39,188 nucleotides of DNA, from assembly GCA_001953115.1 (NCBI GenBank), contig LSSL01003857.1, forward strand, positions 1 through 39,188. The letters are read 5' to 3'. The position numbers and the translations under genes were made by a program. The DNA is from Smittium mucronatum. Its lineage: Eukaryota; Kickxellomycota; Harpellomycetes; Harpellales; Legeriomycetaceae. Below the pieces are notes generated by a model. It was given only the letters and a program-made list of their open reading frames with translations. It did not search any database and was not told where the DNA came from. Positions within the stretch are counted from its first letter, which is position 1. Each line of letters begins with the position of its first letter. Shown here one piece after another: positions 5,263 through 39,188 of this stretch.

Positions 5263-5553
5263 ATTTGCGTTGATAGAAATAAAAAATATATCTTTGGTGT
5301 TTTTACTAAAAGTTATATCATTTTCTCTATCAAGTTAATCCAAATTACTGATGTTAACATCCTATTTATCACTTCACATAAAAAAAACTTCTATAGTTCT
5401 CTTCACCGAGAAGCTTTAACATCCCATACATGTTTTGTTAACCAAAAAAATATTTTGAGTTCTGATATCACATTTTATGTTTTAATACAATCATCAATTA
5501 GAATAAAAGGAATTATGTTATTCACAGTTATTTTTAAAAACGAAGAAGATACA
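5263..5553 (+). other. Open frame of 97 codons without a proper start; possible coding relic
   Basis: The frame is open from just after a TAA (5260-5262) to a TAA at 5554-5556. The product would include ICVDRNKKYIFG near the start, SSLHREALTSHTC in the middle and FKNEEDT at the end, with a more mixed composition than neighbouring translations. The only ATG is about 14 codons before the end, so it is not a complete gene. At this base composition about one codon in ten is a stop, and an open run this long may occur by chance roughly once in a couple of windows. I recognise no family. Confidence 0.2.
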
Positions 5554-7928
5554 TAATTACAAGACTCTTGTATTTTATCTATGGAATCCTTTATCTAGAA
5601 TTTTTTCAAAATTCAAACACAGTTAATTTATACTAAAAACCGTGTTAATAATTTTAAATATATTTTTAATGATATGAGTCATGAAACTAGATATTAAACA
5701 CTGATCAAATGGTTGAATTAAAATTTAGTATTATAAGATATAAACAAAAAACCAAATCTTCCAATAATAATTGTAAAATTTTGGAGTGAAATGATGTATT
5801 TTCTATTAAAAGTAAATTTTAAAACCTATTAATTTCTTTTGAAATATTTTTTATAATTCAAGTTTCAGATTAGATTTAAAATATCAACCAAAAAATTCTA
5901 TATCATATATATTTTTTATTTTTGATGAGCTCGATATCATTGAAGATTTTTGCTTGCACCCCTTTAATATTCTTGGATTTTCTAAATTTGAAACACCCAT
6001 TTACTGAACTTACAGTGTCCATTATAATTTGAAACACGCATGATTGAAAAACTTTCTTAAATCAATTTTATGACTGATACATTTTTTTTAGGATATATAT
6101 CCGCGATGGCACAATTTTCCAGAAAAGATTATTTTTATTGATATTTAATATTTTTATATTAACTTCAAAATTTTTTTAAAAAAATACCATAGGTGAAAGT
6201 TAATCAATACCAATTATTATTTTATCCAGTTTTTCAGAAAAAAATATTGCAGATTTTTGACCTTTTTTAGCTTAATAACTAGTAAATTTGATTTTATGCA
6301 AAGAAAATTATCTTGAAATTTTTAAACTAGTCATTTCTAGCCAAAGATGATAAATTTCTACTATTGGGAAAGTGCTTATGAAGCTCATCAAATATTTATA
6401 AGCCTTTTCCTTTATAAAAAAGGTATTTGAAACATATTTTTTATTTTTCAGGTTATTTATCCAAGATTTTTAAATTGATTTTATGTTTAAAAAATTTCGT
6501 GTTTCTGATAGTAAGACCTTTTTTTACTAAAACTTTAGGAAATCAAAAAAAAAAATTCTTGATAATTCAGAATTTTTATCAAAATTCATCAAAGTACTTT
6601 CACTAATAATGTAGAATTTTAAATATTTTATGTTTTATTTTCAACTTTTAGACGACATAGAATTTTTTATTTTTTATTTTCTAATTTGATAAAAAATTTC
6701 TCTTTATCTTTTTGTTATCTTACATTTTTTTGTAATAAGAATAGTTTAATAATTTTATACATTAAGAAATATTATTTTTAATTCTTTCATATTTAAATTT
6801 AAAATAAAATTAAAAATGGATTATTTTCTGATAAAATTGTTGGCCAAGAATAATTTTTTTTTTTGAAAAATTCATTTTCAATTGGTAAAAAAATTATGAA
6901 AAAAAACTGGACTTATTAAAAAAATTCGATAATTTTTCGATTTTAAAAATAAGAAATTAGCGAAAAGTGAAATCTATCTTTAATTTTTTTAATTATCTAC
7001 TAGCTTCTAACTGAATCTTATCAGTTTAGTCACATAAATTTAAAACTAATAAGTTAAGATAAAAATAACATCAATCAAAACATGATAAATGATCTAGATT
7101 TTATAATTAGAAATAAATATGAATATGAATATGAAAAACATTATGGTTATTTTGCATATAAAAATAAAGTCCAAATTACCTCTTGACTTCAATGAAACCA
7201 AATTTATTCAGATAGATTCAATATTTTATTTAATTATATAAAAAAAAAAAGTAAAAAAAAAAGTTATTATAGAAATTAATTTTAGAAATACGCCAAAATG
7301 AAGTTATTCTAACAGCTTGTGGAGTGTTAAATTCTTCAATATCATTTTTTTTAAAAAAATTTACTTTTTAAAATTTTTTCTTATGATCAATAATATGTAT
7401 ACTATTGGTTAAAGTATGAGTTTGAATTAATCTAAAAGGTTAATAAGCATAATTATTATTGAATTATTTTTTTGATCGTTGAAAGAGATATTTTTCAAAA
7501 ATTACCAACAAAAAATTTATTTAAAATATTCTAATGCGAATTTTTTTACAAATAAATTTATACGTTGAAATATCACAATGATATCATTTTTAATCGATTT
7601 AAATAGTAAAAAGAAAAATTGTCCTAATTTTTAGACTTTAAATATTATGGTATATATCTGGTTTAAAAATTGATTTGATCTTCAGTGTGTGAGTAATTGA
7701 TTTTAATACATTAATTAAACTACCTATTCATTTATTATTGGTAAAAATTTCTGTAAAAAATGAAAAACTAATATTTTTTGAAATAAATAATATATTTAAG
7801 AATTTATAATACGTTTATTAATTTCCTAATTTCATTCCATTTTCACAATTTGTGAACAAGAAATATAATGAAGATGGATATAATTAAATTAATTTCACCT
7901 CTAATCATAAATATTCTTAAAAAAAAGC

Positions 7929-34224: not shown

Positions 34225-36640
34225 ATAAAACATGATCTAATATAAATCAAATATCTTTTTAGAAAGATATAAGTATAAAAATAACTAATATTGAAAGTTC
34301 TTTATGCAAAGGAAAATTAAATTTATCCATTTTTTTGGACTTTGGAACTTGATTTCTTAAGAATAATGAACGCCATCAGCTAAAATATAGAATATTTTTA
34401 AAAGTCTCACTATATAGGCGGGTTGGATATATTTTCTTGTATTAGGAATTGAAAATTTATATACATCTTATTTCTATCTTATTATTAGCAAAATAAATAA
34501 AATCTTTTAAACCGATTCTAAATTTTTTAAGATAAAACTTATAACTTAAAAAAATATCATAGTAAAGCATATGACATATACATTTTTATTTTATATATTT
34601 GAAGTTTATGGAAGCTTTAAATCAGAAATTTCAGAGTAACTTTTTTAATACACGTACAAAAACTTTCATGACTAAAATATATTAAACGAATTTTTGTGAA
34701 ATATTAATGGTCCCAAGACTCAAGAATAAAAAAAAAAAATCTTAGGAGATAGCTTATCAAGATAGTACCGATTAGAGAATTGCGGAATAACATATTTAAA
34801 ACTAATTTAAATTCCACTTTTCTTTTGAAAATAAATAAATAGGTGAGAAAATGGACCCTTTCAAGGTCGTACTAAGTCTTAAAAGATATATTTCCACCAA
34901 GTATAATATCTATGATATAAAAAATTAATGATAGTGCGAAATTATAACTAAAAAATAGTTATTTTTAATCACATATCTAAATATTAATAAAATACAATGC
35001 CAAAAAGCTTATTTATATCATTGGAGCAAATCTTAAATAAAAAATACATCCGCTCTTATATAATTATAATCTTTGGGTTATTTTTTTATTGTACTTGGTA
35101 CAAAAATAACTCTGGTATCAAGGGGACTAATATTAATATGGACTTTTATAAAAAAAAAAAGCTCTTTCCCAAATATATTTTAAAAACGAGGAAAAAATTC
35201 CTCTGATTTAGTAGATTTGAGCTTAGGAAAAATTTTGTGTTAATATTTTACGTTTCAAACACAAAAATTACACTTTTTTTAAAAAAATTAAACTACTTAT
35301 GAATATTTTCGATTTAAAAAATATTAGATTTCTGATATAATAATAATTATATTTAAACTATATGCGGATTGAATACTTTGAGCAAAATGGCATATAATTA
35401 TTCTTAGGAAAAAGAAAAAAGATAGAATTCCTTTGAATTCTTCATACCATTCTGAACTTTTAACATGGTTTCATCATATTTAGTTTGGAATTAAGGGAAA
35501 AAAATTAATATGAATTAATTTTCGCATAATATTATTATCATTTTCTATGATAAAACCAAAAAATAAAAAATAAAAATTCTATATATTATATAAAAATTTT
35601 ACCCTTAAGTCGTACTTTGAAACCGTCATAAAAAATTAAAATCAAATTAAAATCGTTAAAAGGAAGATATTTACTAAATTTCCAACTATCAATTCTATAT
35701 TTAATTTAAAATATATTATAATGATCACAAAACCTTTTACCGTTAGAATCCCATTAAAAAAATGAATATAAATTTCTTGAAATCCAAATTACATTTAGCT
35801 TTTTCATTTAATCTGTTTTTCGTACAAATATTTTATTCCAACAAAAATAATTGTTTCATTATTCTTTCTTGTTTTACCAGATTTATTCGAGACTAAGTAA
35901 CAAAAATACGTTATTTTCAAATTAATACTGCTATTTAATGTAAAAATCAGCTTTTCAAAAAAAATTCTGCAAATTTAATCATTTGGTTTGTTTTTCAACT
36001 CACGACTTTAATTAAATTTATGTATTTTGTGAATGATTTTTCGTAAATTTTGCAGCTTATATTAATAGAAAATAAATAAATAATGTTTTAGATAAAAATT
36101 TGGCTAATGGAAAAACAAATATAAGTTTTATTTCTTAAAAAACCAAAATATATTCCAACGAGTTTTTTTTTCTTCTAAACATCTAATGACTTTTTTTCGA
36201 TTTAAGAAATACTTTAAATCGGAAATTTTTAAATTTCAAATTTAAATCGCTTCTATTTTCTTAATTTGAAAAAATATAATCAAATTTTTATTCTGTTACA
36301 TTAAGGTGATCTCCAAGTCTCGCTTCTAGGCAACACATTAAATTTAACCGTTTTACTTATATATTGGTGATTTTTTTAAAAACTTTTGCCAAAAAGATAA
36401 AATATTTCAATAGGAAGTTAAATTTTCCCTAAATAAATACTATATAATAACTTTAAGTATCTTTAAGTAAAATTTGCTTTTTTTTTCTAAATATGTGATG
36501 CAATTTCAAAAAACCAAAATATCCCGTTATTGTGTGCCTTTTTTATGGTTAAGGATTTCTACAATCTATATATGGTAAATTTTAAGCTTTCTGATATCTT
36601 ACAATATTACGATATCTTTTTCTGGGTACCACTTCACATA
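34225..36640. other. AT-rich tract; one doubtful 69-codon frame
   Basis: AT-rich sequence with no firm feature. A plus-strand ATG frame at 34997-35206 would make a 69-residue Lys- and Ile-rich peptide beginning MPKSLFISLEQILNK, with a hydrophobic stretch (YIIIIFGLFFY) that could cross a membrane. Length and composition are compatible with chance, so it is not called as a gene. Confidence 0.5.
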
Positions 36641-36642
36641 AA

Positions 36643-36824
36643 TTATGATTTTCCATTTAAAATTTTAATATATTACCCCTACATTCCAATATTGAAAAAT
36701 GACTCGGATCCCTTTGTGATGGGAATAAAAAGATATAATTATTCCATTATAATTAGACTAATCCTTCCCTAAGTTTCATACGTGAAACATAACTTAGATC
36801 ACATAGAGATTTAAAAAGAGAGCC
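36643..36824 (+). repeat. Dispersed repeat, copy B (inverted relative to copy A)
   Basis: The reverse complement matches 8327-8506 with the blocks described there, including GGCTCTCT (reverse complement of 36817-36824) and the run GTATGAAAC followed by TAGGG. An 80-codon plus-strand frame at 36530-36772 overlaps this repeat and is most likely incidental. With copy A it forms an outward-facing inverted pair about 28 kb apart. Confidence 0.65.
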
Positions 36825-36829
36825 GACTT

Positions 36830-38310
36830 CTTACTTTGTTAAGTTATACTTTTGTAATTTAGTTTTTTATTCCTTTTTTTGGTTACCATATATTTCCCTT
36901 TTAGTAAACCAGATCCTTGCATAATTTGGCCACTTTAAACCAATTATATTTGATTTATTTTTAAAAAAAGCTTTGAACTTTTTTCTATATTAAATTTTCT
37001 TTAATTTATCTAGATATAATAAGTATGAAATATTCATGCTTTGTTATTTTAGGTTACTTCTGGTAAGGATTTCTGTTTTAATAATTTATAGTGGAGCATT
37101 TATCATCTATAAACTATCATTGATTCGTATGAATCAGTATTCTAGAATGATATAACAGAAGTTATTTCAGTAAATTAATATCTTATTAAGTTCTTAAATA
37201 AATTATTTTATAATAAAAGAGCACTTTTTAGGAAGCGATGATCTTTTATTCCTGTAATAATAATTTTGAAATTGGTAAATACATTTAAAATATCTATAAT
37301 TATATGCCAATTTTCGGCTTATTTTTTATTATTCTCATCTAAAAATACAAATAAATTTAAAAGCATTATTAATTTTCAAGTTTATCGATAGAATATTGTG
37401 AAAATGCTTTTTTTCTAGTTAAAATCAGTCGATAAAAATATATAGATTTTTTATCATTTATTTTAAGTGAAAAAAATGGGATGGGGGGGATTATATTGAG
37501 TTAAACTAACTACTTCTGTGATTTGATTTGATTTTTTGTTATTCTTTTAATTTTATTAACTCTAGCTTTATCTACTAAAAAAAATCATCGTAATATATCG
37601 AATTAATGTTTTATAAAATATGAAAAGATATACATGATCATTATTTTTTCTGTTCTTAAATTGGTAAAATTGGTAAAATTGGAAAAATATATATTTTTTT
37701 TTATTTGACAATAATTTTTTTGAAATAAATCTTTATTCTAAAAATAACGCTTCATTTGATCAAAAGAAGGATATTCCATATTTATAAGAAATTTCATTAT
37801 TTTAAAAGTTTCGATTTCTAAAATTTTTATATTTCTAGATAAGAATAATTTTCAGATCCGTCTTCAAAAAGAAAGACAAAAATTATTTTATCCAACTTAA
37901 ATGATTTCAGCACGATAAAATTCATTCTCTAACAACTTGGGTCACAAAAAAATTCCGAGTCCCGAATTATTTCTAATTAAAAATCCAAAAAATATACCAA
38001 TGTTTTTTTTTCCACATTCAATTTATGTTTTTTATAGCTCTGTTAAATATTTATAAAAAAAAAAAAAATTAAGGGGCTGAAAACAATATTTCTTTCAAGA
38101 AACGGGTTATAAGAGTGCAAGGCAAGTAAATCCGAAGTTATATTTACTATAAAGATATTTATTTATTACTTATTAGAAAGTATACAAGATACTAGATGTC
38201 GAATTCAAGACAGGAAAAACGTATCCTTTTCATGCTTTTTCCGTTGCTTGGTTTTAGGTCATAAACTTCAAAGAAAAACTATAGAATAAACTAAAAAGAA
38301 AGCTATATAA
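36830..38310. other. AT-rich tract without a defensible gene
   Basis: AT-rich sequence with a G7 tract at 37483-37489 and a small tandem repeat at 37660-37686. Frames on both strands are short. I looked for a divergent gene upstream of the heat-shock arrays on the minus strand and found no convincing frame. Confidence 0.55.
37660..37686. repeat. 9-bp tandem repeat, three copies
   Basis: ATTGGTAAA is repeated at 37660-37668 and 37669-37677, with a third copy carrying one change at 37678-37686. It is a minor slippage repeat. Confidence 0.75.
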
Positions 38311-38319
38311 AAATATATG

Positions 38320-38353
38320 TTTGATTACTAATCAAACTTGATTAGTAATCAAA
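38320..38353. promoter_or_regulatory. Nested palindrome: two copies of TTGATTACTAATCAA-type site in inverted array
   Basis: A 16-bp arm TTTGATTACTAATCAA (38320-38335) is followed after two bases by its exact reverse complement (38338-38353). Each arm is itself a palindrome (TTGATTA, one central base, TAATCAA). The whole could extrude as a cruciform or present two dyad sites with ATTA/TAAT cores such as homeodomain proteins bind. It lies about 70 bp upstream of the heat-shock arrays and 630 bp upstream of the terminal gene, so a regulatory role is plausible. An inverted-repeat end of a transposon is an alternative. Confidence 0.5.
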
Positions 38354-38384
38354 ATAAATCGTTATCAATGTTTAAAAATGTGAA

Positions 38385-38404
38385 TACGTAAAATTATTAC
38401 GTAA
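38385..38404. promoter_or_regulatory. Inverted pair of TACGTA sites, one a full TTACGTAA
   Basis: TACGTAA (38385-38391) and TTACGTA (38397-38403) form a 7-bp inverted repeat with a 5-base spacer. The second extends to the perfect palindrome TTACGTAA (38397-38404), a well-known bZIP half-site pair. CpG-containing motifs are rare in this region, and the position just upstream of the heat-shock arrays supports a promoter role. Confidence 0.4.
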
Positions 38405-38423
38405 GAACAATTAAAATCGATAA

Positions 38424-38471
38424 GAAATTTCTGAAATGTTCTAGAACGTTTCATAACATTCTAGAACATTG
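38424..38471. promoter_or_regulatory. Heat-shock element array 1 (ten units in register)
   Basis: Units of GAA and TTC alternate every 5 bp at 38424, 38429, 38434, 38439, 38444, 38449, 38454, 38459, 38464 and 38469. Six are perfect (38424, 38429, 38439, 38444, 38459 and 38464) and four differ by one base. The array includes two TTCTAGAA cores. Alternating nGAAn units are the binding sites of trimeric heat shock factor (HSF), and at least three units are normally needed. It belongs with the second array 15 bp downstream. Confidence 0.75.
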
Positions 38472-38486
38472 TATCTGATGATATCT

Positions 38487-38524
38487 GAATATTACGGAAC
38501 ATTCTAGAAGGTTCTAGAAAATTC
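38487..38524. promoter_or_regulatory. Heat-shock element array 2 (eight units, one mismatch)
   Basis: Starting at 38487, GAA and TTC alternate every 5 bp through 38522-38524. The units begin at 38487, 38492, 38497, 38502, 38507, 38512, 38517 and 38522. Only the unit at 38492 (TTA) departs from consensus, and the last six are perfect and contiguous. This is a textbook HSF site of unusual length and quality, able to seat two HSF trimers. It lies 462 bp upstream of the ATG at 38986. Chance occurrence in DNA this poor in G and C is very unlikely. Confidence 0.88.
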
Positions 38525-38841
38525 CATTCATGAATATTTCCTTCGCATCATGTATCTTTTGATTCGAAAAAAACTTTTAATTATGGGATATTTCTTATTT
38601 GGAACCTAATAATTTCCCCAAATTTTTATTCAAAATGGCCATATAAATCAGCATTTTTCCACAGGATTAATATTTTTTCCACAGATTAAAAAAATAGCTA
38701 ATCAATCTTTTTTATTTTTGGTCAAAAATGTGAGATACCCATTTATTGGTAAGCAAAAAAGTCATATTGTTCATTTTTCATAAGACAAAGGCCATGAACT
38801 CAATCAAACAATGTTATTTAATAATAAAGTTGCTTGTTTTA

Positions 38842-38889
38842 TATAAAAATATGAGGTATAGTTCATAAAGTTTATCATTACTATAAAAT
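38842..38889 (+). promoter_or_regulatory. Candidate TATA boxes of the terminal gene
   Basis: TATAAAAA at 38842-38849 and TATAAAAT at 38882-38889 lie 137 and 97 bp before the ATG at 38986, downstream of the heat-shock arrays. In sequence this AT-rich such motifs are common, so the call rests mainly on position. Confidence 0.3.
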
Positions 38890-38985
38890 AAAATCCTAAC
38901 TCATTTAAAACAGAGCAAAGCTCTTTATAATTATAATTCTTTTTGTATACCGATTCCTCTATATATTATTTCTATTTTCAAAATT

Positions 38986-39188
38986 ATGATTTCTATTAAA
39001 TCAAAAAACTCACCATTAGTCTGGGAACATATAGAAGATTGCTCGAAAGTAGATCTGTCAAAATTTAATAAAAAAAATGGAAGAATTGATTCAAAAAACG
39101 AATGCAGTGTAGTTTACTATTATTGTAAGAATAATAAAAAAATTGGTTGCGGGTATAAAATGAAATACGAAATTTCCGAAAACGTAAC
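38986..39188 (+). CDS. 5' part of an unidentified gene with a Cys-x7-Cys motif (FLYWCH-like?), continues beyond window
   Basis: The frame is open from the stop at 38884-38886 through the window end. The only ATG in it is at 38986, giving 67 complete codons and a partial one. G+C rises to near 30%, above the flanks. The product starts MISIKSKNSPLVWEHIEDCS and includes VVYYYCKNNKKIGCGYKMKY, where two Cys separated by seven residues follow aromatic residues and precede basic ones. This recalls the first half of a FLYWCH-type zinc finger (aromatic, Cys-x7-Cys, later His-x-His), a domain often fused to Mutator-like transposases. The His pair would lie outside the window, so the assignment is tentative. 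The heat-shock arrays upstream suggest stress-inducible transcription. No heat-shock-protein motif is visible. Confidence 0.55.
   Translation, partial: MISIKSKNSPLVWEHIEDCSKVDLSKFNKKNGRIDSKNECSVVYYYCKNNKKIGCGYKMKYEISENV

Follow-up and report, generated by a model that had tools for sequence, protein, structure and literature searches.

The array and its setting

Close to the right-hand end of the window (the whole stretch of 39,188 nucleotides analysed here) is a long series of alternating GAA and TTC units, the pattern of heat-shock elements (HSEs), and just beyond it a transposase-like gene begins. The question is which piece of DNA the array belongs to. An earlier note had counted 18 units and proposed that they place the transposase-like gene under strong control by heat-shock factor (HSF). 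The features on which our answer depends are collected in Table 1.

Table 1. Predicted features around the array, with positions in the window
Feature	Position	Strand	Remarks
Target-site duplication ATTTC, left copy	38088..38092	.	Exact match to right copy
Solo LTR of Ty3/gypsy chromovirus (family A)	38093..38535	-	443 bp; 10 other LTR copies and one remnant; strand from coding frames next to LTRs at C2760 and C2578
TATA-like hexamer	38304..38309	-	Motif match only; LTR position 227 in element direction
Perfect 16-bp inverted repeat, 2-bp loop	38320..38353	.	Within LTR; partly kept in other copies
HSE run 1	38424..38471	.	Ten lattice positions, six good units as three pairs; LTR positions 65-112 (U3)
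HSE run 2	38487..38524	.	GAA/TTC units, eight in alternation with a single mismatch; in U3, at LTR positions 12-49 in element direction
Target-site duplication ATTTC, right copy	38536..38540	.	Exact match to left copy
5' end of separate MULE-type DNA transposon family	38601..39188	+	Cut off by contig end; not part of LTR element

Both runs are found exactly as the note had described them. The first follows a lattice with a 5-bp step, in which six units are perfect and four have one mismatch each, and 15 bp separate it from the second. The count of 18 stands for the lattice and comes down to 14 for credible units, because the four at 38434, 38449, 38454 and 38469 are imperfect in all 11 aligned copies of the surrounding repeat. 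In the second run, all eight units are perfect in the copy at C2750, and a 1-bp deletion splits the run into five and three units in four copies. That the array is genuine and unusually long is borne out by its log-odds score: the best chain of alternating units in the window scores 36.9, compared with a maximum of 23.7 among 60 length-matched windows from a first-order Markov model. With the LTR masked, the window scores 19.3.

Elsewhere in the window, positions 36639-36929 belong to another dispersed repeat, with >20 matches in the rest of the genome at 68-77% identity, and an open frame on the minus strand at 1339-1785 matches reverse transcriptase (RVT_1, E=2.2e-07). Scans of the window with Rfam and for tRNAs found nothing.

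A solo LTR of a dispersed family

The extent of the repeat can be read from genome searches with two overlapping queries. Positions 38200-39188 return two sets of loci, one matching up to about 38533 and the other from about 38600. Positions 34500-38540 return a repeat of about 38095-38533 at 11 loci including the window, together with one 124-bp remnant; these 12 LTRs form family A. The aligned copies run from TGTCAAGA to TTCATGACA and are 426-447 bp long when complete (the C314 copy is cut by a contig end), and the ends of the window copy, TTTCAAGA and TTCATGAAT, are decayed forms of the same sequences. At least one five-unit window with at most one mismatch was found in every one of the 12 LTRs examined.

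The termini have the form TGTCA...TGACA and are accompanied by a short target-site duplication, the combination by which a Ty3/gypsy LTR is recognized. Exact 5-bp duplications flank five of the eight LTRs in solo configuration (ATTTC in the window, TTTAG at C755, GTAAT at C999, ATACC at C773 and TATTC at C1008), where an exact match of the flanks would be expected by chance in about 0.5% of cases; in the remaining three the flanks match in part, at four of five bases in C2750 and three of five in C1919 and C1864. One copy had suggested a small DNA transposon that duplicates 8 bp of its target, a reading rejected because the other copies show TGTCA...TGACA and 5-bp duplications. The window copy is a solo LTR, the remainder of an insertion whose two LTRs recombined.

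The identity of the longer element comes from C2760. There, the minus strand has, after an LTR at 5392-5830, gag-like, protease-like, integrase and chromodomain frames and then an LTR remnant at 392-515 that is 87% identical over 137 bp. The integrase (Integrase_H2C2, E=7e-20) and the chromodomain (Chromo, E=6.2e-13) both score above the Pfam cut-offs; the protease-like frame and the gag-like frame, for which the C2578 copy was scored, are below them. The order of gag, protease, integrase and integrase-linked chromodomain between LTRs is thus present at C2760, while the window itself holds the LTR alone. On the integrase and chromodomain found at C2760, we assign family A to the Ty3/gypsy chromoviruses. 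The LTRs at C2578 and C2760 have no flank duplication, in line with their each being one LTR of a longer element. These two loci are alike on both flanks (about 94%), and are copies of one insertion.

The gene order at C2760 and C2578 fixes the direction: in window coordinates, the element runs on the minus strand. This places the array in U3, ahead of the TATA-like hexamer, and the window LTR would transcribe leftward, away from the neighbouring MULE. Four TTCTAGAA dyads are present in the LTR. An ONSEN-type element should have three or more neighbouring nGAAn units in alternation in its LTR promoter region; here U3 contains the eight-unit run and additional pairs.

Long HSE patterns elsewhere in the genome

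The genome (73.8 Mb in 2957 contigs) was searched for five-unit patterns, with the reversed pattern as a control. The perfect pattern has 15 matches and its reverse none; with up to one mismatch allowed, the counts are 109 and 9. Of the perfect matches, 13 are in the LTRs of just two families, nine in family A and four in a second Ty3/gypsy family (family B), and the other two arrays (L006, C935:12113-12140 and L007, C1472:2864-2896) are outside both. Among 100 of the 109 matches with at most one mismatch, a hand count places 43 in the two families (26 in A and 17 in B), the LTRs of which total about 8 kb. The 57 outside these families exceed the total of 9 matches to the reversed pattern, and therefore other arrays exist. 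The five-unit matches at C145 and C305 are coding coincidences in open frames of another repeat, with the same pattern at C2000. At C338, where an array is found 4 kb before an integrase match, no LTR was recognized.

Family B is best represented at C312. The array (C312:72216-72263) is contained in a 429-bp LTR with ends TGTCATGAAC...CCCTGACA, whose partner at 78033-78460 is identical at 415 of 435 aligned bases (95%), and the element is flanked by ATTTG and ATTTT. Behind the 5' LTR come gag-like frames, which score above the cut-off (Retrotrans_gag, E=1.1e-6), and integrase matches are present between the LTRs. The family comprises eight LTRs: the pairs at C312, C356 and C2158, plus those at C712 and C281. 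Seven contain a five-unit window with at most one mismatch, the exception being the C356 LTR at 37482. The integrase matches between all three LTR pairs contain stops. Together with the divergence of the C312 LTRs and of the C2760 remnant, these stops make the elements look old.

Within the C312 LTR, the array takes up positions 30-82, ahead of a TATAAA at 316; the arrays of the two families occupy the same place in U3. Both LTRs start with TGTCATG, and in blastn at E 0.001 the LTRs of the two families do not find each other; their gag frames match over 32 residues alone (E 9e-05).

Host and its heat-shock factors

One frame with an HSF domain, at C2007, matches SKN7 of Smittium mucronatum with 100% identity across 95% of the frame's length. 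By its sequence, the host is this fungus, which is placed in the Harpellales (Kickxellomycotina), or a near relative. Smittium species are gut fungi of aquatic insect larvae. The related Zancudomyces is likewise a gut fungus of aquatic insect larvae, according to one report (PMC12611240).

Three loci in the genome pass the HSF-domain cut-off. The best solved match of two of them, C2007 and C1819, is chain 5d5w, which we take to be Skn7, marking both as Skn7-type. The third, C660, matches HSF2 and HSF1 chains best, keeps the SFVRQLN helix and has a DNA-binding domain of HSF1 type. A genome search for the HSP90 family gave no match; as such a gene is expected, the search or the assembly is probably incomplete. 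An HSP20 gene has no HSE chain in the roughly 320 bp upstream.

A probable heat-responsive enhancer and its alternatives

The sequence shows the LTR, its duplication, family and strand, the array and the HSF1-type gene, and the reading we consider probable is that the array serves, or served, as the U3 enhancer of a Ty3/gypsy chromovirus of a Smittium fungus, driven by HSF in the manner of ONSEN. Where an element is complete, host Hsf1 would attach as trimers to the run of eight units and to the pairs in U3. Binding would increase transcription from the LTR under heat or proteotoxic stress and, as with ONSEN, would thereby couple copying of the element to stress. The solo LTR in the window codes for nothing, and could still confer heat-dependent activity, mainly leftward, or act as an enhancer.

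A broader proposal can be made only tentatively, and we rate it as possible rather than probable: that the two Ty3/gypsy families hold nearly all the perfect long HSF sites of the genome, that Hsf1 drove bursts of retrotransposition on warming, and that solo LTRs scattered through the genome are now a source of heat-responsive sites.

Conservation of the HSE units is not convincing. Between subgroups of the family, divergence is 0.134 in the units, 0.224 in the linkers and 0.166 elsewhere in the LTR (permutation p 0.04 and 0.18), and for G/C columns it is 0.316 against 0.334; within group 1, divergence is higher in the G/C columns of the units (0.286) than in the rest (0.186). An excess of conservation that is not significant is one of the points in favour of the array being a by-product of slippage by 10-bp dyads and drift within the LTR, with no present regulatory role. 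Another is the family B LTR at C281 (L074, about 1152-1572), which is without 20 bp, or four units of the array, relative to that at C312 (L001, 1462-1890); this difference suggests growth or loss of the array by 10-bp dyads, as slippage would give. The coincidental matches in coding frames at C145 and C305 also fit. Arguments to the contrary are the shared U3 location in two families with LTRs too different for blastn to pair, the fact that Tandem Repeats Finder reports no repeat there, and the way in which G and C stay in phase within sequence that is 77% A+T. Overall, we regard slippage and drift as an unlikely explanation.

If the array is read by a stress factor, that factor might instead be of the Skn7/Prr1 type, responding to oxidative or osmotic stress. 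In favour of this idea, two of the HSF-domain genes are of Skn7 type, beside a single HSF1-type gene. Long alternating nGAAn/nTTCn arrays are, however, the classic site for Hsf1 trimers, and Skn7 sites are usually other, shorter motifs, so that a role for Skn7/Prr1 in place of Hsf1 seems quite improbable.

For the array as the promoter of the downstream transposase-like gene, position is the first consideration: the array ends about 75 bp ahead of the MULE repeat, and HSEs can act in both directions. The repeat is a family in its own right, with a MULE domain in copy L012 (E=2.2e-12). Among 11 copies examined out of a larger number, the match starts at 38597-38602 in nine and at 38674 in two. 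If the array belonged to this family, other copies should carry it as well, a check that the earlier note had proposed. In the 1500 bp upstream of these 11 copies, 10 score 13.3 or less, within the random range. The eleventh, at C1117 (L017), has an HSE of four perfect units, GAAACTTCAAGAAAATTC, located 219-237 bp upstream (at about 2320-2342 of L017, C1117:59135-59157); its score of 21.7 exceeds the maximum of 18.8 among 400 random 1500-mers, and it has no sequence similarity to the LTRs of either family. The C1117 copy speaks for the idea of heat control of MULEs, whereas the array in the window came with the LTR instead. Enclosed by LTR ends and a 5-bp duplication, and in an LTR that reads the other way, the array is very unlikely to have originated as the promoter of this gene or to place it under heat control. 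What survives of the proposed stress control in mobile DNA is that the array does belong to mobile DNA; its carrier is a solo LTR separate from the transposase-like gene. As a separate observation, frames with a weak MULE match, below the cut-off, are found at C999 (L033 327-863, plus strand) within about 1.2 kb of the solo LTR there.

Chance is ruled out by the chain score relative to the Markov windows and by the genome-wide pattern counts relative to the reversed control, and a satellite or simple repeat by the dispersal of the copies, their sharp ends and duplications and the same Tandem Repeats Finder result; nor is this the satellite scattered without genes that the note had named as fatal to its case, the repeat being joined to retrotransposon genes at C2760 and C2578. 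The array in the window is more likely to tie a jumping gene to heat stress than to control the neighbouring transposase gene.

Comparison with known systems

To judge from titles and the opening parts of abstracts, none of the papers found on Smittium retrotransposons, transposable elements of Harpellales or HSF-controlled LTRs of chromoviruses describes such arrays. The fungal gypsy element MAGGY is reportedly induced by heat. DIRS-1 of Dictyostelium, a retroelement of an A+T-rich host, resembles the present case in that a terminal repeat reportedly contains a heat shock promoter. Its terminal repeats are inverted and it uses a tyrosine recombinase, unlike the LTR/integrase element described here.

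The closest parallel is with ONSEN/COPIA78 of Brassicaceae, which has a cluster of four HSE units and for which HSFA2 binding has been shown by experiment; TERESTRA has a cluster of six (PMC3907296, PMC5059998). ONSEN and other heat-responsive COPIA families share with the Smittium elements an HSE cluster in a retrotransposon LTR and the presence of several such families per genome. They differ in being Ty1/copia elements of plants, whereas in Smittium the elements are Ty3/gypsy, the host is a fungus, and a run of eight units plus pairs is predicted from sequence.

Among fungi, the LTR retrotransposons TCN12 and TCN3 of Cryptococcus have one and two putative HSEs, respectively, in their LTRs, and their mobilization at 37 C has been observed (PMC12810828). 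That observation sets them apart from the Smittium arrays, which are much longer and are sequence predictions. The same 2026 paper calls host-driven heat activation of transposons undescribed in fungi. In Caenorhabditis, Helitrons contain dense HSE clusters with HSF-1 ChIP evidence (PMC6927752). There too, dense clusters of HSEs in the genome sit in mobile elements and are spread by them, although these are rolling-circle DNA transposons, of animals, with binding documented by ChIP.

HSF-driven activation of transposons is established in plants and animals, and an early-diverging fungus in which two Ty3/gypsy families carry long HSE arrays would offer a clear test case. In such a genome, a scan for long perfect HSEs meets the ends of retrotransposons first. 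If our preferred reading is correct, the same control would operate in a different retrotransposon superfamily from that of ONSEN; on the broader, more tentative proposal, the Smittium elements would be a fungal counterpart of both ONSEN and the Caenorhabditis Helitrons.
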